Shown here one piece after another: positions 1 through 14,404 of a DNA stretch of 14,916 nt (positions are counted from its first letter, which is position 1; the number at the start of each line of letters is the position of its first letter). A program made the position numbers and the translations under genes. Source of the stretch: Methylophaga sp. (GTDB lineage: Bacteria > Pseudomonadota > Gammaproteobacteria > Nitrosococcales > Methylophagaceae); NCBI GenBank assembly GCA_014762585.1, contig JABURN010000245.1, positions 1-14,916 of the forward strand, given 5' to 3'. The notes under the pieces were generated by a model, which made no database searches, was not told the DNA's origin, and was given only the letters and a program-made list of their open reading frames with translations.

Positions 1-81
1 CAGCACAGTTAAATAGGTTTTGTAAATATGGAATTTGTAGTGAGCAACTAGATCTGATTTAGCAGGCAGATGCGAAGGCTG

Positions 82-143
82 GCCCGATACATTGCCCGGT
101 CATTGTCCACGTAACTCAGCGGGATAGAGCGGCCCCACCTTAA
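82..143 (+). repeat. Degenerate promoter + 5' part of tRNA-Arg(CCU), copy A
   Basis: The -10-like TACATT (88-93) lies 11 bases before a tRNA-like stretch at 105-143. That stretch matches the first 39 bases of the intact tRNA-Arg at 6583 in 32 positions, including the D-arm core CAGC and GGATAGAGCG. The match reaches through the anticodon loop (AA at 142-143) and then stops, so there is no T-arm or acceptor 3' strand. Acceptor and D-stem bases are mutated, so it cannot make a tRNA. No -35-like TTCG is seen at the expected place. The rest of 1-264 holds nothing else I can support. It is probably the oldest of three displaced fragments. Confidence 0.75.
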
Positions 144-264
144 TGAATACACATACTGAAGAAAACGACCGAATTCAGCTGTCGGTGATAAGACTTCATT
201 GTGAAATAGCCTCGAAAGCCATCTTAAATCACTACAGGCTATGCGCTCCGCTTTTGGCCTGTGC

Positions 265-1938
265 TCAGAGGTTTTTGTCGGTGACTGCACCTTCAGATGC
301 AGAGGAGACCGTTTTGGCATATTTCGCCAAGACGCCGCGTGTATAGCGCGGTGGAACGGGCTGCCAGGCTTCACGTCTTTGTCGAATTTCTGTATCACTC
401 AGGTGGAGATGTATTTCGGCGTTTTCCGCGTCAATCGTTATTTCATCACCATTTTCAACCAGTGCAATCGGGCCGCCATCAAAAGCTTCAGGGGTAATGT
501 GGCCAGCCACAAAACCGTGGCTGCCGCCAGAGAAGCGACCATCAGTTATCAAGGCCACGTCGTTGCCCAGGCCTTTGCCAATAACGGCAGAAGTAGGGCT
601 TAGCATTTCCCGCATGCCCGGTCCGCCTTTGGGACCTTCATAGCGAATAACGATGACATCACCTTTCACGACGGTGCCATTCAGGATATCTCGTTGCGCC
701 TCTTCTTCAGAATGGAATACCCGGGCTTTACCGGTAAAACGCAAGCCTTCTTTACCGGTAATTTTGGCCACGGCGCCCTCTGGTGCCAGATTTCCCTTGA
801 GAATGACCAGATGGCTGTCTTTTTTGATGGGGTTGTCAAAGGAACGAATAATGTTTTGGTTTGCAGGATAGGGAGCGACATCGGCCAGGTTCTTAGCCAG
901 GGTTTTGCCGGTTACTGTCAGGCAATCACCATGCAGTAATCCCCGTTCTAACAGGCTTTTCATCAGTGGCTGAATGCCGCCGATGGCAATGAGTTCCGAC
1001 ATCATGTATTGGCCACTGGGACGCAAGTCAGCCAATACCGGAACATTGCGGCCGATGCGGGCAAAATCATCCAGGCTGAGTTCAACATTCACTGCATGAG
1101 CCATACCTAATAAATGCAAAACGGCATTGGTCGAGCCACCCAGCGCGATCAATGTGGTAATGGCATTTTCAAAGGCTTCACGGGTCATGATGTCGGTAGG
1201 TTTGATGTCCTTTTCCAGCAATGCCATAACGGCAGCGCCTGCGCGGCGGCAATCCTCGGCTTTTGAGGGAGAGACAGCTTCCTGTGCAGAGCTGTTAGGC
1301 AAACTCATGCCCAGGGCTTCAATCGCTGAAGCCATGGTATTGGCTGTGTACATTCCGCCACAGGAACCGGCGCCGGGAATCGCCGTTTCTTCAATCTGTT
1401 TTAATTCATCCGCTGACATATCGCCGCGTGCGTGTTTGCCTACGGCCTCGAATACAGAAACAATATCAGTGTGGTTTGCGCCAGGCTGAATTGTGCCACC
1501 GTAAACAAAGACCGATGGGCGGTTTAAGCGGGCTAGGCCTATCAGGCAACCCGGCATGTTCTTATCGCAGCCACCAATGGCAACCAGCCCATCGAATCCC
1601 TCACAGCCGGCAACGGTCTCAATCGAGTCGGCAATCACTTCACGAGACACCAAAGAATATTTCATGCCGATGGTGCCATTAGCAATGCCATCAGAGATGG
1701 TGATGGTGTTAAAAATAACCCCTTTAGCGCCAGCCCCGTTGGCACCCTCGCAGGCAAAATCAGCCAGATGGTTGATATGCATATTGCAAGGAGTGACCAT
1801 ACTCCAGGTTGAGGCGATGCCAATTTGTGGCTTCTGGAAATCGCTATCGTCGAAGCCAACTGCTCTTAGCATTGCTCTGGCTGGTGCTTTGCCGGTCCCG
1901 TCGACCACTTTGGAGGAATGTTTTCGCGTATCTGTCAT
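265..1938 (-). CDS. ilvD: Dihydroxy-acid dehydratase, short-type
   Basis: IlvD removes water from 2,3-dihydroxy-isovalerate and 2,3-dihydroxy-3-methylvalerate, the third shared step of valine and isoleucine synthesis, in the cytoplasm. The 557-residue protein is complete. Likely Fe-S cysteines are C51 (TPCNMH), C124 (GGCDKNMPG) and C193 ([10 protein letters not shown]), and the C-terminal part carries the expected DGRFSGG and the ending [10 protein letters not shown]. The length and GGCDKNMPG motif fit the short class found in plants, cyanobacteria and many other bacteria. The classical enterobacterial enzyme is about 616 residues and has GNCDKITPG. The start is preceded by GGTGAG at usable spacing. 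The gene sits alone between tRNA fragments A and B, with no ilv neighbour and no clear terminator. Inference: an extra or replacement copy brought by insertion at the tRNA. Confidence 0.95.
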
Positions 1939-2126
1939 AGCCTGTACTCACCGAAATGCTGATAAGAGAACTTTAACATCTAAGTCGAATAGGACTTCAT
2001 CGAAAAGTTAATCCGATATGGATGTAATATTTGCCTGAGTTCAAAAAATACATCACAGAGCAGAGAAAACCGAGATCGCGAGGCTTTCCGATTATCAGCC
2101 GGTCAGTCACCGACTGTATGTTTAGA

Positions 2127-2194
2127 ATTCGTTGGTAGAAAACAGCCCTGTTATAACGCCCAGAAACTGTCCCTCTAGTTCAGCTGGATAGAGC
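2127..2194 (+). repeat. Promoter + 5' half of tRNA-Arg(CCU), copy B
   Basis: TTCGTT (2128-2133), an 18-base spacer and TATAAC (2152-2157) reproduce the promoter layout of the intact tRNA gene. After the same 11-base gap comes a 26-base tRNA 5' part (2169-2194) matching 23 of 26 positions. Similarity ends at GATAGAGC, and the stop codon of the leftward hxlR gene follows 16 bases later. No 3' half exists here, so the fragment is not functional as a tRNA. Confidence 0.8.
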
Positions 2195-2210
2195 TATCTT
2201 CAAAAAATAT

Positions 2211-2534
2211 CTATAGCTCATTCTCAAGCGTCCAGTTTTTCAGTTCTTCTAGGATAGTTAGTGCACTGAGTCCTCGAGGAGCAATATCGTATTGCACTGC
2301 CACCGGTTTCATTGAGATCACTTCTCTTGTGATGAGCTGATTGTCTTCCATAGCCTTTAGCCTCTCAGCAAGCACTTTTTTGCTGGCGCCGGCAAGTTGT
2401 CTGGCAATTTCATTAAATCGCATCGGATGGTCTTTCAGATGCCATAAGATCGAGCCTGTCCATTTATTGCCTATGATCCTCATGCCCCGTTCGACTGGGC
2501 AAGGTTTGTAACAAGTCTGACTGTTTTCATTCAT
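2211..2534 (-). CDS. HxlR-family winged-helix transcriptional regulator
   Basis: This 107-residue protein shows the HxlR (MarR-like) pattern: an N-terminal cysteine region (C8, C12 in CYKPCPVERG), then GNKWTGSILWHL, then the winged helix RFNEIARQLAGASKKVLAERL, and LITREV with a Y-D wing near residues 90-95. HxlR proteins act as dimers and often sense electrophiles or oxidants through an N-terminal cysteine; C8 and C12 are candidates. It is divergent from an oxidoreductase gene, and the gap holds a strong inverted repeat. Known family cases such as QorR repress a neighbouring quinone oxidoreductase gene. Control of both genes by this protein is inferred. The Shine-Dalgarno sequence is weak (AGAAG). 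Confidence 0.9.
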   Translation of the reverse strand: MNENSQTCYKPCPVERGMRIIGNKWTGSILWHLKDHPMRFNEIARQLAGASKKVLAERLKAMEDNQLITREVISMKPVAVQYDIAPRGLSALTILEELKNWTLENEL

Positions 2535-2543
2535 GATTACTTC

Positions 2544-2582
2544 TAGGTTACAAAATGTTAACTGGTTGACTATTGTAACCTA
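2544..2582. promoter_or_regulatory. Inverted-repeat operator between hxlR and the oxidoreductase gene
   Basis: TAGGTTACAA (2544-2553) and TTGTAACCTA (2573-2582) are perfect 10-base inverted arms with 19 bases between them. The inner side of each arm carries a poorer mate (GTTAAC at 2557-2562 and GGTTGAC at 2564-2570), so the block can also be read as two adjacent dimer sites. A -35-like TTGACT (2566-2571) lies inside, with a weak TAGTTT 16 bases on, so binding would cover the rightward promoter. The role as HxlR operator is inferred from position. Confidence 0.65.
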
Positions 2583-2623
2583 AATGGTAGTTTGTGGGTT
2601 TGTTTTCTAACAGGAGCGAACAC

Positions 2624-3634
2624 ATGAAAGGCAAATCGATTTATGTCGAAGCAGGAGGTGGCTTTCACAACGTTTCAGTCGATGAGGCAGAAGCACAGAA
2701 ACCAGGAGAAGGTGAAATCCTTGTCAGACTTCATGCTAACTCTCTGAACTTTCACGACTATGCGGTGGTAAAAGGGCTATGGGCCGCCTCAGAAAAAAGG
2801 ATACCGATGGCAGATGGCGCAGGTGAGGTCATAGAGGTGGGAGCTAACGTCACTGAGTTTGAGGTCGGTGACAACGTAGTTAGTACTTTTTTCCCGTCAT
2901 GGTTAAATGGCGAACCACTAGTTGATGGGTTTGCAACCGTCCCAGGCGACGGGGTAGACGGCTACGCACGAGAATATGTCACGGCTAAGGCCGAGTCATT
3001 TACAAAGTCTCCCAAGGGTTGGTCTCACATAGAGGCGTCCACTCTCACTACAGCTGCCTTAACTGCATGGCGGGCGCTGTTTGACTTCAATCCATTGAAA
3101 TCCGGCGATACTGTACTCCTCGAAGGCACCGGGGGGGTGTCTATTTTCGCCTTACAGTTTGCCAAAATGGCGGGTGCCAAAGTGATCGCCACCTCATCTA
3201 GTGAACAAAAACTCAAGCGTCTCAAAGAGCTGGGTGCCGATCATGTTATCAACTATAAGGAAGAGCCTAAATGGGGGCACCTTGCCCGAGAGCTAAATGA
3301 CGGGAGAGGCGTTGACCACGTGGTAGATATTGGTGGCGCTGAAACATTGGATCAAGCGCTGAACGCTGTACGAGTGGGTGGTCAAATTTCTTTAATCGGT
3401 ATTCTCTCTGGACAGACATGTGAGATAAACATCGTGAAATCTTTTGTGAAACAGGCCAGACTCCAAGGGGTGCTTGTCGGCAGCAGGGTGCAACAACAAG
3501 ACATGATCAAGGCCATTGAAGTTAATCAAATCAAACCGATCATTGATAAGGTGTTTCCGCTTGAAGAAATAGTACAGGCTTTTGAGTACCAAGAGACAAA
3601 TCAGCACTTTGGTAAGATTTGTCTGGAATTTTAA
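2624..3634 (+). CDS. Zinc-free MDR oxidoreductase, quinone reductase-like
   Basis: This 336-residue medium-chain dehydrogenase/reductase has an N-terminal GroES-like fold (NSLNFHD at 39-45, then ADGAGEV and GDNV) and a nucleotide-binding domain with GTGGVS (168-173) and SSSEQKL. The only cysteines lie near the C-terminus, so neither catalytic nor structural zinc sites are present. That fits NAD(P)H quinone oxidoreductase-like enzymes, which reduce quinones or enones; the true substrate cannot be told. An upstream in-frame GTG at 2594 exists, but ATG 2624 has AGGAG at 2612-2616 with ideal spacing, so I use it. The gene is divergent from hxlR with a shared operator and is followed by a terminator. 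Probably an electrophile-inducible detoxification pair. Confidence 0.88.
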   Translation: MKGKSIYVEAGGGFHNVSVDEAEAQKPGEGEILVRLHANSLNFHDYAVVKGLWAASEKRIPMADGAGEVIEVGANVTEFEVGDNVVSTFFPSWLNGEPLVDGFATVPGDGVDGYAREYVTAKAESFTKSPKGWSHIEASTLTTAALTAWRALFDFNPLKSGDTVLLEGTGGVSIFALQFAKMAGAKVIATSSSEQKLKRLKELGADHVINYKEEPKWGHLARELNDGRGVDHVVDIGGAETLDQALNAVRVGGQISLIGILSGQTCEINIVKSFVKQARLQGVLVGSRVQQQDMIKAIEVNQIKPIIDKVFPLEEIVQAFEYQETNQHFGKICLEF

Positions 3635-3647
3635 TTATTAATTTTAC

Positions 3648-3670
3648 AGGCCCTTCTCGAAGGGCCTTTG
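3648..3670 (+). terminator. Rho-independent terminator after the oxidoreductase gene
   Basis: AGGCCCTT pairs with AAGGGCCT around a CTCG loop, 13 bases after the stop codon. The T run is short (TTTG), so termination may be only moderately efficient. Confidence 0.7.
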
Positions 3671-3700
3671 TCCGCTCAGCCGCCGGTTGGGCTCAAATCG

Positions 3701-3769
3701 ATTCGAAGCCCATATCAACGCCTGTTATAATGCCCAGCCATTGTCCCCGTAGCTCAGCTGGATAGAGCG
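3701..3769 (+). repeat. Promoter + 5' half of tRNA-Arg(CCU), copy C
   Basis: TTCGAA (3702-3707), an 18-base spacer and a perfect TATAAT (3726-3731) stand 11 bases before 27 bases (3743-3769) identical to the 5' end of the intact tRNA. The 11-base gap also matches the intact copy except for two bases. After GATAGAGCG the sequence continues CCAGAAAAATT and is no longer tRNA. The promoter looks functional, so it should transcribe a tRNA 5' half and run on antisense into the leftward gene whose stop lies 10 bases away. Confidence 0.9.
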
Positions 3770-3778
3770 CCAGAAAAA

Positions 3779-4375
3779 TTATTGAATTCTTCCAGTCTGC
3801 AAGACATTGATTCCAAGGGAATAAAGTTGTCTTTTGAGGGTTTCATCCCCCGTGGCTTGCCAGCGTCTATGGAGGGCAAATATTTCTTCTGCATCGAACT
3901 GAATTTTCCTCTGGCATACAGAACCGATGATTTGTAATAAACGGGGGAAACGAACTGATAGTTCGTTAAATACATCCGGGTTGCAATAATTCTGTTCGGC
4001 AAGCGTGCTGTATGCACCGCCGCCCATACCAATGAAATAGTCTTTTCTTATACCAGCTCGCATGAGTTTGTCAGGGAATAGCGAACCAATAAACAGTGAT
4101 ACATCACCCAGACGACGGAGCTTGGTCAGTTTTTGTGACGTCGTTTTTGCTTCGTGAGCATCTCGAAAGATGAAGGCCAAGGAAGGCAAGCTGAGACCAT
4201 GGTCACTCTCTTCAAAAAAATGCCGGCTATCTGAATAGTGGACGAGCAGGTTAACCAGATAGCTTAAGGTATCTTCAGAGAGTGCCAGTGAAGTGTTTCG
4301 TGTTGCATCTGAAAGCCTGTATTTAAACCATTCATTGAGATTGTTGTTAGCAATCAGTGTTGTGGTTCTCTCCAT
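3779..4375 (-). CDS. Hypothetical protein of unknown function
   Basis: I do not recognise this family. From ATG 4375 it is 198 residues, without a signal peptide or membrane segment, so probably cytoplasmic. Visible stretches are an aromatic and charged block HYSDSRHFFEE, then FRDAHEAKTTSQKL, a hydrophobic RRLGDVSLFIGSLFPD, and a glycine-rich KDYFIGMGGGAYSTLAE near the middle, which look like conserved cores. The C-terminal third is rich in R, Q and L and probably helical. An earlier ATG at 4390 lacks a ribosome site; ATG 4375 has GGGG seven bases before it. It is divergent from groES and begins 37 bases from the sigma-32 promoter. Codon use and an uninterrupted frame support a real gene. Whether it is heat-shock linked cannot be told. 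Confidence 0.75.
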   Translation of the reverse strand: MERTTTLIANNNLNEWFKYRLSDATRNTSLALSEDTLSYLVNLLVHYSDSRHFFEESDHGLSLPSLAFIFRDAHEAKTTSQKLTKLRRLGDVSLFIGSLFPDKLMRAGIRKDYFIGMGGGAYSTLAEQNYCNPDVFNELSVRFPRLLQIIGSVCQRKIQFDAEEIFALHRRWQATGDETLKRQLYSLGINVLQTGRIQ

Positions 4376-4411
4376 GCCTTTACCCCACATGAAAAATTTT
4401 TACATAAGACT

Positions 4412-4439
4412 CTTGAAAACAAAATTTCATTCCCCAAAT
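4412..4439 (+). promoter_or_regulatory. Sigma-32 (heat-shock) promoter for groES-groEL
   Basis: CTTGAAA (4412-4418), a 13-base spacer and CCCCAAAT (4432-4439) match the RpoH consensus CTTGAAA-N13-15-CCCCATNT almost exactly. It stands about 70 bases before groES. No CIRCE element (TTAGCACTC-N9-GAGTGCTAA) is present, so HrcA control is unlikely. Confidence 0.85.
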
Positions 4440-4507
4440 GCTTGCTTGTTCAGTGGTTTAGCCCTGAACTTGTACAGTGACTTAATTGTGATTTTAGGAG
4501 GAGTTTG

Positions 4508-6441
<1,934 letters not shown>

Positions 6442-6457
6442 AGCATCGCGATCCATC

Positions 6458-6487
6458 AAAAAAGGGGAGTTGACGCTCCCCTTTTTT
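6458..6487. terminator. Rho-independent terminator after groEL
   Basis: GGGGAG pairs with CTCCCC around a 6-base loop, flanked by six A on the left and six T on the right. The symmetry lets it work in both directions. Confidence 0.9.
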
Positions 6488-6541
6488 CTTCACCCCTGTT
6501 CGCCGATCATCTGCCGTTCATTCAGCCGCACTCAACACCCA

Positions 6542-6571
6542 TTCGTCGAGATTGCAGACGCCTGTTATAAT
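6542..6571 (+). promoter_or_regulatory. Promoter of tRNA-Arg(CCU)
   Basis: A weak -35 TTCGTC (6542-6547), an 18-base spacer and a perfect -10 TATAAT (6566-6571) lie 11 bases before the mature tRNA 5' end. The layout is repeated at copies B and C, which supports it as a real element. Confidence 0.75.
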
Positions 6572-6582
6572 GCCCGACCATT

Positions 6583-6659
6583 GTCCCCGTAGCTCAGCTG
6601 GATAGAGCGTCCCCCTCCTAAGGGGAAGGTCGCAGGTTCGACTCCTGCCGGGGACGCCA
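6583..6659 (+). tRNA. tRNA-Arg, anticodon CCU
   Basis: The 77-base gene folds fully: acceptor GTCCCCG/CGGGGAC, D-stem GCTC/GAGC, anticodon stem TCCCC/GGGGA with loop CTCCTAA (anticodon CCT, reading AGG), T-stem GCAGG/CCTGC with TTCGACT loop, discriminator G and an encoded CCA. It is the only complete copy in the window. The stop codon of the leftward dsrE2-like gene begins two bases after CCA, leaving no room for a terminator. In E. coli the equivalent gene argW is a known prophage integration site. Confidence 0.97.
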
Positions 6660-6661
6660 GC

Positions 6662-7126
6662 TTAGATGTAAAGCGTGATATCAGCTTCGGAGGCAAATTC
6701 CAGAAAAGTGGCAGCACCGCCGCTGCTGATGCCTTCAACAAAGTCTTCGTGTTTGAAGTCGAACAAGTCCACAGTCATCTGGCAGGCTATCAGTTCAACC
6801 CCTGACTCGATACATATTTCCCTGAGTTCTTCAACGCTGGCCACGCCTTTCTTTTTCAATTTGCGTTTCATCATCCAGGTGGCAAAGCCTTCCAGCCCGG
6901 GCAGAACCTGGACAATGCTGGGCACAGTGACCGGCATTGGCATGGCCGGGTTACCCAGTGGTGAGACTTTGAGGTTCAGCTCTTTGTTGAGTAATTGCAG
7001 GCCATAAAAAGTGAAGAAAATCTTGGCTTCAAAGCCCAGCGCCGCAGCGGTGGAGGCAAGCAGGAACGGTGGATAGGCGCCGTCCAGTGTACCTTTGCTG
7101 GCAATGATGGCTAGTTTCTTAGCCAT
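6662..7126 (-). CDS. DsrE2-like sulfur-relay protein (DsrE/DsrF family)
   Basis: DsrE2-type proteins belong to the DsrE/F/H superfamily and take part in cytoplasmic persulfide transfer, often beside TusA. From ATG 7126 the protein is 154 residues: MAKKLAIIASKGTLDGAYPP at the start, a Rossmann-like alternation, a loop rich in M and P (NPAMPMPVTVPS), and C115 in ELIACQMTVD, the place of the conserved cysteine in this family; C105 is a second one. ATG 7126 has GGGAG before it and lies inside the end of tusA (8-base overlap), so I prefer it to an ATG 39 bases earlier. It forms an operon with tusA. The exact sulfur donor and acceptor are unknown. Confidence 0.88.
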   Translation of the reverse strand: MAKKLAIIASKGTLDGAYPPFLLASTAAALGFEAKIFFTFYGLQLLNKELNLKVSPLGNPAMPMPVTVPSIVQVLPGLEGFATWMMKRKLKKKGVASVEELREICIESGVELIACQMTVDLFDFKHEDFVEGISSGGAATFLEFASEADITLYI

Positions 7127-9403: not shown

Positions 9404-9720
9404 TGGCAATCAAAGCCAGAGACAGAATACGAGCCAAGCTGACAGATGAGCAGACCACCGTGCGGGTTCTGCTTGCTCACCCCATGCATACCGGCCGCGG
9501 TGAAAACGAGCAGGGAGAGTTGATACCCGCTGAATTTATCCAGGATATCCGTTGCTGGCGTAACGGCAAGGAAGTCCTGACCATCAAGTGCGGCACTGCA
9601 ACGGCCCGTAATCCTTATTTTTCATTTCAGCTGGCAGGTGGTGCTTCCGGCGACAAAATCATGGTTCGCTGGGTGGACAACCTCGGCGCCAAGGGGATTG
9701 CCGAGACCACCCTGTCATGA
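9403..9720 (+). CDS. soxZ: SoxZ-like sulfur carrier partner
   Basis: SoxZ is the partner of SoxY and has no signal of its own, travelling with SoxY through Tat. The 105-residue protein shows the family pattern: VRVLLAHPMHTGRGENEQGELIPA, then FIQDIRCWRNGKEV, ARNPYFSFQL and a closing WVDNLGAKGIAETTLS. ATG 9403 is chosen over 9394 because GGAGG lies at 9389-9393 and it forms TGATG with the soxY stop; that same GGAGG encodes the last glycines of SoxY. Its own stop overlaps the start of the next gene (ATGA at 9717), linking the carrier translationally to the sensor kinase. Confidence 0.92.
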   Translation: MAIKARDRIRAKLTDEQTTVRVLLAHPMHTGRGENEQGELIPAEFIQDIRCWRNGKEVLTIKCGTATARNPYFSFQLAGGASGDKIMVRWVDNLGAKGIAETTLS

Positions 9721-11429
9721 GTCTCAAGCTCAAGGTTAATCTTTTTTTCACCATCCTCTTGCTGGCTTCATTAATGGCCGGCACCGGCGTGCTGATTTCC
9801 AATGCCCGTCACTCAGTCGAAAAAGAAGTGCAGGACACCATGGATGCCGCAGCAAGACTGATCACCCTGACCCTGGCTGACAGACCCCTTAACAGGGAAT
9901 TGGGCATCAATGAGCAGATGCACGAAATGATCAAGGCGCTGAGTGAAATCCGTAGCCTGCATATTCTGCTGTTTGATGCGCAGGGCCTCCTTTATGAAGG
10001 TGAGCCGGAACCCACCCTGGAAGTCGAGCCGCCCGAATGGTTCGTTAAAATTCTGTTTCCGGAAATCACCCCCCTGAGTAAACGTTTCGGCAACGGCCAT
10101 ATGGTGATTTATGCGGCACCGATGCAGGAAATCAGTGACCGCTGGCAAGACATTCGCAGCATCATCGGGCTGGGGATGGTGGTGTTTGTGTTTGTCAGTA
10201 TCTTTTTGTACTGGGGGGTTGACTGGTTTTTGCGTCCTTTGCAGCGTTTGCTACAGGCGCTGGCGGCTTTTGAGCGGGGAGACCTGCATTCCAGGCTGCC
10301 CAGTTTCACGCTGCCGGAGATGAACCAGATCAGCCAGACCTTCAACCGCATGGGGCAGGCACTGGAGCTGAGTTCAGCTGAAAACCAGCGTCTGGCGATG
10401 CTGGTCAGACAGTCCGGCGATGCCATTCTGGCGCTCGATCATGCCGGCAATATCACTTTCTGTAACTCCACCGCCGAAAGATTGTTTGCCAAGCAAACGC
10501 CGGTACTGAAAGGCGAAGCGCTGGCGAATCTCGGTTTTGATCATCAGCGCAAGAACATCGCCCGTGTGCTGGAAAACTGCGAAACCATTGAAAATATGGA
10601 AACCACACTGACCCGACCGGATGGTGAGCAACTGACCCTGTTGATGTCCAGCGTGCCGCTGTATGACAACAATCAGCAGATTATCGGCCTGGTCTGCACA
10701 CTGCGTGATATCACCGAGCTGAAACAGGCGGAAATGGCCCGCAACCAGTTACGTGAAACCCGCCTGCTGACCAAACATATGGATGAAGTGCAGGAAGCAG
10801 AGCGCCGGCACCTGGCGCGTGAATTACATGATGAACTGGGACAATGCCTGACCGCCATCAAGACTGATGCTGTATTGATACGAAATCGCACTCAGGATAG
10901 CGAACCCAGAATTCATGGCAGTGCTCAGGCGATAATTGATACCGCCAGTCACATCTATGATGTGGTGCATAACATGATTACCCGGTTGCGTCCCAGCCCG
11001 CTGGATGATCTGGGTCTGGTGCCGACGCTGGAGCAGAGCATCGCCAGTTGGCGTGAACGCGAAGCTGAGATAAATTTTGTGTTGCAGATCAGCGGCAAAC
11101 TCGACAATCTGAACGAAGCCATGAACATGACGGTCTTCAGAGTAGTACAGGAAGCCATCACCAATGCGGTGCGTCATGCCCAGGCCAGCCAGATCAAGGT
11201 CCAGATTCATGCCGAGCAGGGTGGAGATAAGGACGAGCTGAGCATCGATATCAGCGACAACGGTAAAGGTATGGTGGTTAAAGATTTTCATTCTGATGTC
11301 GACTTTGGGCTGCTGGGAATGCGCGAACGGGTTCAGAGCATGGGCGGCGAGTTCAAGTTGCTGAGCGAGCCCGGTGACGGAGTGGCGATAAAAATTAAGA
11401 TTCCTCTGGGAGCGGACAGACTGATATGA
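9717..11429 (+). CDS. NarL/UhpB-type sensor histidine kinase with PAS
   Basis: This 570-residue membrane kinase should phosphorylate the regulator encoded just after it. Domains: TM1 (about 8-28), periplasmic sensor (29-145, with PPEWFV at 105-110), TM2 (147-168), HAMP (170-222), PAS (about 224-337), HisKA_3 with phospho-acceptor H371 in ARELHDELGQ, and HATPase (EAITNAVRHA at 479-488, SDNGKGM at 513-519, GLLGMRERV at 531-539). All catalytic motifs are intact. The start overlaps the soxZ stop (ATGA) and the end overlaps the regulator start (ATGA). Kinases of this class govern PQQ alcohol dehydrogenases in Paracoccus and Pseudomonas; a similar job here is inferred from pqqA and xoxF nearby. The signal is unknown. 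Confidence 0.93.
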   Translation: MSLKLKVNLFFTILLLASLMAGTGVLISNARHSVEKEVQDTMDAAARLITLTLADRPLNRELGINEQMHEMIKALSEIRSLHILLFDAQGLLYEGEPEPTLEVEPPEWFVKILFPEITPLSKRFGNGHMVIYAAPMQEISDRWQDIRSIIGLGMVVFVFVSIFLYWGVDWFLRPLQRLLQALAAFERGDLHSRLPSFTLPEMNQISQTFNRMGQALELSSAENQRLAMLVRQSGDAILALDHAGNITFCNSTAERLFAKQTPVLKGEALANLGFDHQRKNIARVLENCETIENMETTLTRPDGEQLTLLMSSVPLYDNNQQIIGLVCTLRDITELKQAEMARNQLRETRLLTKHMDEVQEAERRHLARELHDELGQCLTAIKTDAVLIRNRTQDSEPRIHGSAQAIIDTASHIYDVVHNMITRLRPSPLDDLGLVPTLEQSIASWREREAEINFVLQISGKLDNLNEAMNMTVFRVVQEAITNAVRHAQASQIKVQIHAEQGGDKDELSIDISDNGKGMVVKDFHSDVDFGLLGMRERVQSMGGEFKLLSEPGDGVAIKIKIPLGADRLI

Positions 11430-12070
11430 GCCTAAACAAAACAAAAGTCTTGCTGGTGGATGACCACGAGCTGGTGAGGGCTGGCTTTCGCCGTTTACTG
11501 GAAGATGGTGATAAGTTCACTGTGGTTGCCGAGTCCGGTAGCGGTGAACAGGCGGTGCAGGATTTCAACAAGCACCACCCGGATGTAGTGGTGATGGATA
11601 TTTCCATGCCCGGTATCGGTGGCGTCGGCGCCATAGAACGCATCATCGCCCGGGAGCCCCATGCGAGAATTCTGGTACTTAGTGTCCATGAGGACAGCGT
11701 GTTCACTACCCGGGCCATGCAGGCCGGTGCGCTGGGGTTTATTCCCAAACGTAGCGCCCCTGAGGAAATGCTGAAAGCTGTAGAACTGGTCGCGCAGGGT
11801 AAAACCTGTATTGCACCTGAAATCGCGCAGCAACTGGCAATGCAGAAATTAACCGGCTCTGAAAACCCGCTCGATGTGTTAAGCCAACGCGAGTTTGAGG
11901 TGTTCCGCCTGTTAGCAGAGGGCAAAACCGTTAATGAGATCGCGGATATTCTCAGCTTGAGCCCAAAAACAGTGGGTACACATCACACCAATATCAAACA
12001 GAAGCTGAATGTCTCCAACTCGGCAGAACTGGCTCGGTTGGCTATCCGCAGTGGTCTGGTGGATGCTTGA
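11426..12070 (+). CDS. LuxR/NarL-type response regulator, partner of the first kinase
   Basis: This 214-residue regulator has a receiver domain (acidic pair D12-D13, phospho-acceptor D58 in VVVMDISMPG, S86, K108 in GFIPKRS) and a LuxR-type helix-turn-helix at about 150-210 (LSQREFEVFRLLAEGKT, then SPKTVGTHHTNIKQKL). Everything needed for phosphorylation and DNA binding is present. The ATGA overlap with the kinase gene makes the pairing very likely. Its end is 129 bases before pqqA, so pqqA is an obvious candidate target; this is inference. Confidence 0.94.
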   Translation: MSLNKTKVLLVDDHELVRAGFRRLLEDGDKFTVVAESGSGEQAVQDFNKHHPDVVVMDISMPGIGGVGAIERIIAREPHARILVLSVHEDSVFTTRAMQAGALGFIPKRSAPEEMLKAVELVAQGKTCIAPEIAQQLAMQKLTGSENPLDVLSQREFEVFRLLAEGKTVNEIADILSLSPKTVGTHHTNIKQKLNVSNSAELARLAIRSGLVDA

Positions 12071-12154
12071 TATCGATTCAGGAAAATCCTGAGTCACGAC
12101 GAGCAAATTCCTCTCTGGCTTTTTTCATGGGCTCTGTAATCTATCACTCAACGA

Positions 12155-12182
12155 ATCCGGTTATCCGGTGTTTCAAGAAACA
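12155..12182. promoter_or_regulatory. Repeat/dyad cluster upstream of pqqA
   Basis: A tandem direct repeat ATCCGGTT/ATCCGGTG (12155-12170) overlaps the dyad TGTTTC-AA-GAAACA (12169-12182), ending 17 bases before the pqqA start. A -10-like TGTAAT (12135-12140) lies upstream without a good -35, as expected of an activator-dependent promoter. Binding by one of the adjacent LuxR-type regulators is only a suggestion; if transcription starts near 12147 the elements would lie in the leader. Confidence 0.35.
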
Positions 12183-12199
12183 AAAAAGAGGTGATTACT

Positions 12200-12271
12200 A
12201 TGTGGACTAAACCAGAATATTCAGACATGCGTTTCGGTTTCGAAGTCACTATGTACATTTGCAACCGCTAA
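12200..12271 (+). CDS. pqqA: PQQ precursor peptide PqqA
   Basis: PqqA is the ribosomal peptide whose glutamate and tyrosine side chains are joined by PqqE and then cut out to become pyrroloquinoline quinone, the cofactor of methanol dehydrogenase. This 23-residue peptide begins MWTKPEYSD and ends [10 protein letters not shown]. The invariant Glu15 and Tyr19 lie in E-V-T-x-Y, the same spacing and total length as Klebsiella PqqA. GAGGTGA (12188-12194) sits five bases before the ATG. It is followed by a strong terminator and not by pqqB, so it is a lone pqqA; pqqBCDE must lie elsewhere. The stand-alone unit may allow the precursor to be made in excess over the enzymes. Confidence 0.95.
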
Positions 12272-12292
12272 TTGCATAGAGAAACCAAACTC

Positions 12293-12320
12293 AAAAAACC
12301 CGGCTCTGCCGGGTTTTTTT
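12293..12320 (+). terminator. Rho-independent terminator after pqqA
   Basis: CCCGGC pairs with GCCGGG around a TCT loop, with six A before and seven T after. It starts 21 bases after the pqqA stop codon and closes the one-gene unit. Confidence 0.93.
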
Positions 12321-12419
12321 ATGTCTGCTGTTTCAAAGAATAGCCGAAAAAGGAATTTCTCCTATCTCCTTCTCCCCGGGTGAGCCATAAAATGCAGTTT
12401 TATTTATTGCTCCCCCATC

Positions 12420-13757
12420 ATGAATCTCAGATTCAGACTTAACCTTATTGTCACCATCATCTTATTCGTCATCGTGCTGCTCGGTGCCATGACGACGGTT
12501 CATAATGCCCGTGAAAATGTGAGGGCAGAAGTGGATTCCACGATGGACCTCGCCCTGCATATGCTTGAAGCTGAGCTCAATCATTTCAAGCGTACGGGCC
12601 TGATGAGCGCAGACGAAGACATGTCGCTTTTCAATCTGGGGCGTCTCTCAGGTGTTCGCCATCTACGCATAGAATTTTACGACAGCCATGGCTTTCTGGT
12701 TGAGACCAATCAGGTTGATGATGCCCATGATGAAAATGATCCGCCCAGCTGGTTCGTGTCACAGATGCAGGCCGGTCTGGACAACATGACTCTCAAATCC
12801 CTTCCTGTCAGTATCAACAATCGAGAGATCGGCAAACTGGTCATTAGTCCCGAGCCGGGCAATGAAATCAGTGAAGCCTGGCATGAAACCAAAACTATGC
12901 TTGAACTGATTGCCTTGTTCTTCGTGTCGGTCAATGTGGTTGTTTATATCGCTGTCGGGCTGTCGCTGAAACCTATCGACAATATTATTGATGCTTTGAC
13001 GGATATTGAGGCTGGCCATCTGGACCGACGTCTGCCTGTCTTCAACCTGCCAGAGATGGCCAGTATCAGCCATAAGTTCAACGGCATGGCTTCCGCCTTA
13101 CAGATCAGCACCCGTAACAATCATCGTCTTACCCAGCAAATCATCCGCCTGCAGGAAGCGGAGAGAAAAACCATCGCCCATGAATTACATGATGAAATCG
13201 GCCAGCATCTGACTGCGATCCATGTCGATGCTTCTGTTATCAAAAGTTGTCAGGATCTGGCTTGTGCCAAGCGCAGTGCTGTAGCGATTGATGAGGTCGC
13301 CAGACAAGTGATGGACATCATCAGAACCATGCTGCATCGATTGCGACCGGGTGGACTCGATGAAATCGGCTTTCTTGCCGCAGTACAGGACTTGGTCAAT
13401 AACTGGCAACAGCGGCACAAAAATATCGAAGTGCTCACCTATATTGAAGGCGACTTTTCCGATTTAGACGAAAACGAACAACTGACGCTCTATCGCGTCC
13501 TGCAGGAATGCCTGACCAATATCAGCCGACATGCAAATGCGAAGCTTGTAGAAATCTCATTGCTGGAGAGTGGCAAAGAGCGTTTGCTGATTGTGAAAGA
13601 TGATGGACAGGGCTTTGAGCTTGGACGTCATCCACAGCGTTTTGGACTGGCCGGCATGCATGAGCGCGTGGACAGTATCGGCGGAAAATTAAACATTACC
13701 AGTCAATATCAGCAAGGTGTGACAGTGCAGGTCACGCTTGCTAAACAAGGAGAATAA
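12420..13757 (+). CDS. NarL/UhpB-type sensor histidine kinase without PAS
   Basis: This 445-residue kinase is a paralogue of the one at 9717, sharing the N-terminal pattern (NLRFRLNLI, HNARENV, EVDSTMDLA) and the periplasmic PPSWFV (108-113), EIG and P-x-x-EIS features. Domains: TM1 (about 9-28), periplasmic sensor (29-160), TM2 (161-182), HAMP (183-235), then directly HisKA_3 with H257 in AHELHDEIGQ, and HATPase (ECLTNISRHA at 363-372, KDDGQGFE at 393-400, GLAGMHERV at 409-417). The PAS of the first kinase is absent. The ATG has no clear ribosome site; TAAAAT (12388-12393) could be a -10, giving a short leader. It is followed by its regulator gene and then xoxF, making methanol or lanthanide control a plausible but unproven role. 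Confidence 0.93.
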   Translation: MNLRFRLNLIVTIILFVIVLLGAMTTVHNARENVRAEVDSTMDLALHMLEAELNHFKRTGLMSADEDMSLFNLGRLSGVRHLRIEFYDSHGFLVETNQVDDAHDENDPPSWFVSQMQAGLDNMTLKSLPVSINNREIGKLVISPEPGNEISEAWHETKTMLELIALFFVSVNVVVYIAVGLSLKPIDNIIDALTDIEAGHLDRRLPVFNLPEMASISHKFNGMASALQISTRNNHRLTQQIIRLQEAERKTIAHELHDEIGQHLTAIHVDASVIKSCQDLACAKRSAVAIDEVARQVMDIIRTMLHRLRPGGLDEIGFLAAVQDLVNNWQQRHKNIEVLTYIEGDFSDLDENEQLTLYRVLQECLTNISRHANAKLVEISLLESGKERLLIVKDDGQGFELGRHPQRFGLAGMHERVDSIGGKLNITSQYQQGVTVQVTLAKQGE

Positions 13758-13759
13758 GC

Positions 13760-14404
13760 ATGGAACAATCAATAAAAGTCATGCTCACTGACGACCACGC
13801 GGTAGTGAGATCAGGACTTGGCAGGTTGCTTGAACAAAATGAAGGTATTCAGATTGTTGGGGAAGCCGAAAGCGGTGAGCAGGCTTATCAGACTTTTTCG
13901 GAAATCAGGCCGGATGTGTTGGTGATGGATATGTCGATGCCGGGTATGGGGGGACTTGAGGCGATGCGTCGCATTCTTAACCGTTGGCCTCAAGCCCGGA
14001 TAATCATGTTCTCAATGCATGAAAACGCGACTTTCGCTATTCAGTCGATGACCTCAGGCGCCCTTGGCTATGTGGCAAAATCGGGACATGCGGAGGATCT
14101 GGTTAAAGCTGTCCGGGAAGTGGCGCAGGGGCGCAGCTTTCTGAGTTCGGACATGGCACAGAAAGTAGCCTTGCAAAGCCTGACCGGAGGCGATAATCCG
14201 GCCCAGAAACTGACCTCGCGTGAGTTTGAAGTATTTCGTTTACTGTCTGAGGGAATGCTGGTTGAGGAAATAGCGCTCAGCCTCAATATCGGTCACAAAA
14301 CCGTTGCCAATTATCAGACCAGTCTGAAACAAAAGTTGGGTATCAACTCACCTGTGGACCTGGTCAGGCTGGCACTGAAATATGGTGTCATTAATGAGCA
14401 TTAA
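13760..14404 (+). CDS. LuxR/NarL-type response regulator, partner of the second kinase
   Basis: This 214-residue regulator has D11-D12, phospho-acceptor D57 in VLVMDMSMPG, S85 and K107 in the receiver, and a helix-turn-helix at about 150-210 (LTSREFEVFRLLSEGML, then GHKTVANYQTSLKQKL). It is the same length as the first regulator and clearly paralogous, but the recognition helix reads VANYQTS rather than VGTHHTN, so the two should prefer different DNA sites. AAGGAG lies before the ATG, two bases after the kinase stop. It is the gene just upstream of xoxF and is the strongest candidate for its activator, by position only. Confidence 0.94.
   Translation: MEQSIKVMLTDDHAVVRSGLGRLLEQNEGIQIVGEAESGEQAYQTFSEIRPDVLVMDMSMPGMGGLEAMRRILNRWPQARIIMFSMHENATFAIQSMTSGALGYVAKSGHAEDLVKAVREVAQGRSFLSSDMAQKVALQSLTGGDNPAQKLTSREFEVFRLLSEGMLVEEIALSLNIGHKTVANYQTSLKQKLGINSPVDLVRLALKYGVINEH

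Follow-up and report, generated by a model that had tools for sequence, protein, structure and literature searches.

Tandem gene blocks upstream of a Methylophaga tRNA-Arg(CCU) gene, probably built by repeated insertion that renews the tRNA promoter and 5' half

We analyzed the whole of contig JABURN010000245.1 (14,916 nucleotides, hereafter the window) from Methylophaga sp. assembly GCA_014762585.1, in which three gene blocks stand in tandem upstream of a tRNA-Arg(CCU) gene. The window genome, G000 in our numbering, is 2.37 Mb, its assembly is 86% complete, and the window is its contig C242. An original prediction, made from the window alone, held that the promoter and 5' half of this tRNA occur four times in the same orientation (copies A to D), that only the last copy has a 3' half, and that repeated insertion within the tRNA had left the older copies stranded. 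ARAGORN found a single tRNA in the whole window (Arg, anticodon CCT, 6583-6659), confirming that only copy D is complete. We call a promoter and 5' half live when they belong to a complete tRNA and stranded when they are cut off from a 3' half, and we number tRNA nucleotides (nt) from the first. The features of the array are as follows.

78..143, plus strand: copy A, taken as the oldest stranded promoter and tRNA-Arg 5' half; nt 1 at 105, profile match 78-131 (8e-11)
265..1938, minus strand: block 1 cargo, an IlvD/Edd-family dehydratase (Pfam PF00920/PF24877); a homologous cassette adjoins the live tRNA in G019
2088..2194, plus strand: copy B, comprising an upstream arm region, promoter and tRNA nt 1-26; nt 1 at 2169; the right end of block 1, apparently stranded by block 2
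2211..2534, minus strand: block 2 cargo, an HxlR-family regulator (Pfam PF01638)
2594..3634, plus strand: block 2 cargo, a member of the zinc-type alcohol dehydrogenase/quinone oxidoreductase family (Pfam PF00107, PF08240)
3701..3769, plus strand: copy C, comprising promoter and tRNA nt 1-27; nt 1 at 3743; the right end of block 2, apparently stranded by block 3
3779..4390, minus strand: block 3 cargo, a protein of 203 amino acids (aa) with no Pfam match; homologues lie beside groESL in G005 and G013
4505..4822, plus strand: block 3 cargo, a groES-like open reading frame (ORF) of 105 aa, named from position and sequence, not from a family search
4819..6441, plus strand: block 3 cargo, a second GroEL (Pfam PF00118)
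6500..6582, plus strand: copy D, the right end of block 3, with arm region and live tRNA promoter; a stranded counterpart lies in G005-C77 (0.86 identity over 150 bp)
6583..6659, plus strand: the complete tRNA-Arg(CCU), the presumed integration target (ARAGORN)

A profile trained only on the copies of other genomes scored copy C at 70.9 bits, D at 64.5, B at 42.3 and A at 30.7. The best match of the same profile in 200 dinucleotide shuffles of the window was 12.2 bits; scores so far above that maximum indicate that the copies are not due to chance. The four same-orientation copies of the prediction were thus confirmed as one full tRNA and three partial ones on the same strand, and its match counts held when recounted by eye (C identical over 27 nt, B 23/26, A 32/39). 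The similarity of B-D extends ~80 bp upstream of the tRNA start. Matching ends at nt 26-27 in B and C, and in A at nt 32 by junction scoring; read by eye, 9 of the 12 positions at nt 28-39 of A also match, and the match plausibly reaches nt 39. The TATAAT of copy D starts at 6566, leaving 11 bases before the tRNA. This spacing, claimed for all four copies, holds for B, C and D; the -10 of A is degenerate. The claimed TTCG-type -35 hexamer ~18 bases before the -10 was seen in B and C. A sigma-70 consensus scan of 1-6700 did not list these promoters and returned 5 promoter-like sites against 6.6 expected, which is no excess. Because the consensus scan misses these sites, the label "promoter" rests on conservation and position.

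We read the tRNA-Arg(CCU) region in 21 of 24 genus genomes and in 23 further family genomes; the counts of stranded copies are lower bounds, as several contigs in the latter end soon after the tRNA. Stranded copies were present in 13 of the 21 and 5 of the 23, giving 39 distinct copies in 18 family genomes (43 rows less 4 from overlapping stretches, with longer remnants in G026, nt 44, and G004, nt 49, left out). All 30 copies that share a contig with a live tRNA-Arg(CCU) lie upstream of it on the same strand. The relatives do not share one uniform layout; their layouts differ widely. Of the 21 genus genomes read, 20 showed no second full tRNA-Arg(CCU) upstream, the exception being G005, where two contigs each end in a full tRNA in a bin with 4% contamination. 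The G005 array stretches lie on three contigs (L040, L041 and L042), two with a complete tRNA-Arg(CCU), and probably reflect a strain mixture.

Partial copies repeated on one strand could also have arisen by tandem duplication and decay of the tRNA gene, with genes inserted between the copies later. We rejected this explanation as highly improbable, given relatives with empty sites and a single tRNA, a different promoter upstream of each copy, and copies that end sharply in the D or anticodon arm with no full extra copies among them.

The empty and filled sites could be followed in pairs of genomes. G011 and G019 aligned over 16.6 kb (89%) as far as tRNA nt 27, and the alignment resumed at -22 with 94%; over G011, G019 has one clean block of ~2.06 kb that carries an IlvD/Edd-family gene and is flanked by a 49-bp direct repeat. 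The live promoter and tRNA of G007 correspond to a stranded copy in G022, exactly to nt 39, after which two more blocks precede the live tRNA of G022. Three extra blocks emerged when G017 was compared with G006. The window appears to fit such a series: its positions 262-2194 aligned with G019 16675-18612 at 80.6% over 1.9 kb, so that copy B matches the live tRNA of G019, and its own live promoter D matches a stranded copy in G005 that is followed by four further blocks.

We also compared the 150-bp promoters of 24 stranded copies with those of 14 live tRNAs. Six of the 24 had a clear live counterpart in another species, with identities of 0.79-0.90 against 0.59-0.67 for the next unrelated promoter (pairs G019/G011, G005/G000, G022/G007, G022/G023, G017/G006 and G017/G021). 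Genome comparison shows clean insertions in which the 5' unit is duplicated, together with nested live-to-stranded pairs. The core of the original prediction, repeated insertion of blocks that each supply a promoter and 5' half, is borne out by sites that are empty, partly filled or differently filled and by live promoters that are another genome's stranded copies.

We therefore consider it likely that the array was built by repeated site-specific insertion inside tRNA-Arg(CCU), with each block renewing the promoter and 5' half. The tRNA-side end of an incoming block would consist of its own arm region, a promoter and a tRNA 5' half. The tRNA would be rebuilt from the 5' half of the block and the 3' half of the host and transcribed from then on from the promoter of the block, and the previous promoter and 5' half would be stranded on the block's far side.

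The prediction had also stated that no recombinase is visible. That is true of the window genome, and it did not hold for the family, since a dedicated integrase lies inside such blocks in 6 of 57 family genomes (E at most 1e-60), every time directly upstream of tRNA-Arg(CCU) and antiparallel to it. The six sequences are tyrosine recombinases of 407-409 aa, 84-96% identical to the first, with a PF00589 domain and an arm-binding PF13356 domain. Five of them are bracketed by 5' copies on one contig; that of G033 adjoins the tRNA at a contig start, and its left partner ends another contig. These elements have direct repeats of part of the tRNA at their ends, a tRNA rebuilt at one junction and a tyrosine integrase inside, the last of which is missing from the window's own blocks. 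Elsewhere, matches to the integrase came from one distant viral contig (25%), two Vibrio plasmids (~37%) and three phage records (best 40%).

In the integrase elements the break in the old tRNA falls at nt 39, where the anticodon loop ends, and a conserved left end of 105 bp, common to eight copies, follows directly. We rejected the idea that this conserved sequence is the end of the integrase ORF, as the nearest long ORFs end more than 100 bp off or are absent. Copy A of the window was tried as a copy bearing the left end and rejected too, the left-end profile giving no match there. A structured RNA or terminator was not supported in the five left ends folded (z-scores -1.38 to 0.80). The arm motif CCGNT[CT]A occurs in 19 of 30 element right ends, 6 of 8 left ends, none of 9 native-type promoters and 49 of 2000 random windows; the motif was chosen and the promoters sorted by eye after viewing, and this is only suggestive. 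We suppose that the integrase exchanges strands in the anticodon loop, at about nt 33-39. One G022 block has both ends and an RND pump and no integrase, which makes it plausible that the integrase acts in trans on integrase-less blocks that keep both ends.

The 39 junctions of the stranded copies fell at nt 39-40 in 10 cases, at nt 25-30 in 24 and at nt 31-35 in 5. One of the nt 39-40 junctions is cut by a contig end. Because ends short of nt 22 are beyond the reach of the method, the nt 25-30 cluster owes its lower edge partly to the method. Junctions at nt 25-30 turn up again beside unrelated cargo and, outside the genus, elsewhere in the family (G034 at 26, G060 at 27, G078 at 25). These cassettes may have lost the left end once inserted, or may owe their insertion to a D-arm recombinase or to the help of homology. 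Tentatively, and with less than even confidence in this step, we regard them as former or trans-mobilised members of the integrase system that have no left end and now pass between strains when the repeated 5' units recombine homologously, one end of the exchange lying in the tRNA.

The two groups of junctions could instead reflect two overlapping systems, one of integrase elements that use the loop (nt 39) and one driven by a second, unseen recombinase that acts in the D arm. The spread of the nt 25-30 group over unrelated cargo and other genera speaks for this, as does the nt-27 junction of the clean G011/G019 insertion. No recombinase gene was recognised in the nt 25-30 cassettes, only part of whose genes were searched against families, and deletion after insertion could equally give such junctions; we think two systems rather unlikely. 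A further reading, which we also rate as unlikely, is that the small cassettes are a gene-capture system of their own, with the tRNA as platform, the promoter and nt 1-27 as tag, and recombinase action or exchange at the boundary of D arm and anticodon stem. If that were true, every cassette gain would renew the tRNA promoter, making an integron-like ratchet anchored in an indispensable RNA gene.

Cassettes and flanks do not always diverge together. The cassette of HxlR regulator and alcohol dehydrogenase (ADH), a pair that recurs as one block in other genomes, was more alike than its flanks between G016 and G021 (91.6% vs 79-82%) and less alike between G017 and G021 (85% vs 93-94%) and between G000 and G005 (83% vs 95-97%). 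An autotransporter tract of G007 and G012 was 93% identical, with flanks at 75.5-79%. Cassette order also varies: the window has HxlR-ADH to the left of groESL, and G005 has it to the right of groEL. Between G007 and G012 the exchanged tracts reach beyond the cargo into the copy on its left and a portion of the adjacent cassette, a sign that those moves went by homologous exchange.

Such tracts would also be expected from natural transformation, in which a donor fragment of cargo, promoter and tRNA recombines homologously at the tRNA and by an illegitimate joint in the recipient 5' half. Transformation would account for the restored tRNA, the stranded 5' half and the missing recombinase as well. 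Joints made illegitimately would be expected anywhere in the promoter and upstream genes, however, and those observed cluster at nt 25-30; the integrase elements are left unexplained. We accordingly find it an improbable origin for the arrays. The related suggestion of the original prediction, homology-assisted illegitimate recombination, may apply to the cassettes that have no integrase, which form the bulk of the arrays and include window copies B and C.

Several observations weigh against site-specific insertion by the integrase as the full account. The nt 25-30 junctions, among them copies B and C, lie outside the anticodon loop and have no left end. The left-end profile finds no sequence beyond its own eight training sequences, and the window genome, as far as its assembly is complete, has no match to the integrase. 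The role given to the integrase comes from its association with the elements, and excision, a circular form and integrase activity are predictions from sequence. In the promoter comparison, 18 of the 24 stranded copies had no clear live counterpart (at most 0.73), and for copy B the comparison failed to single out G019 (0.66, with G016 and G021 at 0.67); the link between copy B and G019 therefore rests on the 1.9-kb alignment. Decay of the arrays with distance is weak: of 8 arrays, 5 have fewer mismatches in the nearest copy than in the farthest, 2 have equal numbers and 1 has more. By eye, the right ends look like the host lineage in the bases just ahead of the tRNA and in portions of the 5' half; simple import would not predict this if blocks did not circulate within lineages. 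For this reason we considered whether the host 5' half is duplicated locally when a block inserts, but one right end (G022 17228) has a tRNA nt 17 unlike its neighbours.

The cargo of the arrays is diverse. The window genome has another GroEL on contig C128 and two IlvD/Edd-family matches besides that of block 1 (three in all). Arrays elsewhere carry a Na+/H+ antiporter, a cysteine/methionine-metabolism pyridoxal phosphate enzyme, an autotransporter, a GGDEF protein, chemotaxis proteins and an RND pump. Small secreted-looking proteins of one similarity cluster (C6; L046, L048, L053 and L062) occur as single-gene cassettes, often directly before a 5' copy, and the one member searched had no Pfam match. 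The integrase blocks carry type I restriction in G002, and type IV restriction with a retron-type reverse transcriptase (RT)-protease in G022 (L049), where the RT-protease, which matches the type XI model, and a type IV restriction-like protein lie at 13951-15306 and 9655-10575; a 1347-aa protein in the G016 block matched no defence model. Downstream of the tRNA, similarity clustering grouped the genes at 9717-14404 of the window into two tandem pairs, which we take to be sensor kinases with LuxR-type regulators.

Textbook tRNA islands replace the 3' end of the tRNA and leave the host promoter in place. The prediction that these blocks do the reverse was upheld: the upstream blocks bear 5' repeats, and in none of them does the element supply the 3' half. 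Relatives of the integrase with 37-42% identity were found in 9 of 369 genomes drawn from the class, and polarity could be read at 4 of their 10 loci, the other six having no tRNA in the stretch read. At all four, which are tRNA-Pro(GGG), tRNA-Pro(CGG) and tRNA-Met twice, the repeat begins at nt 30-33 in the anticodon arm and runs through the 3' end, as is usual where the 3' half is restored. In the Methylophaga elements the loop is the same, and what they bring is the promoter with the 5' half; we infer that the site of strand exchange was kept as the homologous arm switched sides, flipping the polarity.

The other side of the same tRNA is occupied as well. In G009 and G023 a second kind of integrase adjoins the tRNA on its strand, with 3'-half repeats from nt 28 downstream, and G008 has a 3' repeat from nt 28 with another integrase-like gene. 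The 3'-half copies, each from exactly nt 28, lie at L039 1337-1386 (G023), L045 2075-2124 (G008) and L055 1494-1543 (G009) and are classic islands. With 5'-type blocks upstream and 3'-half repeats downstream, the tRNA is used from both sides.

Integrons, too, gain cassettes of one or a few genes at one end and keep them in ordered arrays. By description (no attC or IntI search was made) the present arrays differ from them, in that a promoter with a tRNA 5' half forms the repeat and insertion takes place in a tRNA. According to the part of PMC8371274 consulted, a rebuilt bacterial tRNA keeps its original promoter with very few exceptions, and the pTN3-like integrases of archaea use the tRNA 5' half, a case seldom met in bacteria. 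As the consulted sections describe the pTN3-like elements of Thermococcales (PMC8371274, PMC5495485), they resemble the Methylophaga blocks in having attB in the tRNA 5' half and in parting the rebuilt tRNA from its original promoter. In the archaeal elements integration splits the integrase gene, whose promoter then drives the tRNA; in the present ones the six integrases are uninterrupted and inside the element, and the right end carries its own tRNA promoter. Serial cassette arrays are not described for pTN3-like elements in those sections.

Excerpts on the Dehalococcoides ssrA islands (PMC3146451) likewise describe a single small-RNA gene with many islands in tandem, a partial repeat of the gene marking the bounds of each; many of the islands have no integration genes and are possibly mobilised by neighbours. 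Those islands sit at the ssrA 3' end, with 20-bp repeats downstream, and rely on a serine recombinase-type integrase related to Ccr, in contrast to a promoter and 5' half upstream. In the additive flexible genomic islands of Alteromonas and Methylophilaceae, as far as the extracts of PMC4119200 and PMC10872708 go, variable cassettes also pile up at a tRNA with partial tRNA repeats, but the repeats described there come from the 3' end of the tRNA (its last 52 and its last 20 nt). The dusA islands, in the portion of PMC4482086 consulted, share integration at the 5' end of a gene, which is a protein gene and not a tRNA. The phages of tRNA-dependent lysogeny (PMC10865867, in part) have a tyrosine integrase in a tRNA and must supply the lost tRNA function, but they bring a whole tRNA and rebuild none at the junction, unlike the arrays. 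G004 looks like such a case: a host-type tRNA-Arg(CCU) is cut after ~nt 49 (L061 1446-1701, minus strand), a different and foreign complete tRNA-Arg(CCU) lies within ~60 bp, a tyrosine integrase match stands alongside (G004:C1:21051-21647), and the element seems to bring a whole replacement tRNA. Within the collection of papers searched, there was no description of a cassette array built on a promoter and tRNA 5' half. To our knowledge there is no serial array at dusA. Restoration of a 5' half is known but rare in bacteria, and serial cassette build-up with that polarity is new.

Blocks of this kind would take over transcription of a host tRNA, and the stranded halves that they leave behind would be a readable record of the order of insertion. 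Since integrases ~40% identical use the same loop with opposite polarity, how polarity evolves can be put to the test. Defence genes (type I and type IV restriction and the retron-type RT-protease) gather at the site, as do extra copies of housekeeping genes such as groEL. As the 5' half of a block must pair with the 3' half of the host, the tRNA itself may limit which lineages swap blocks.

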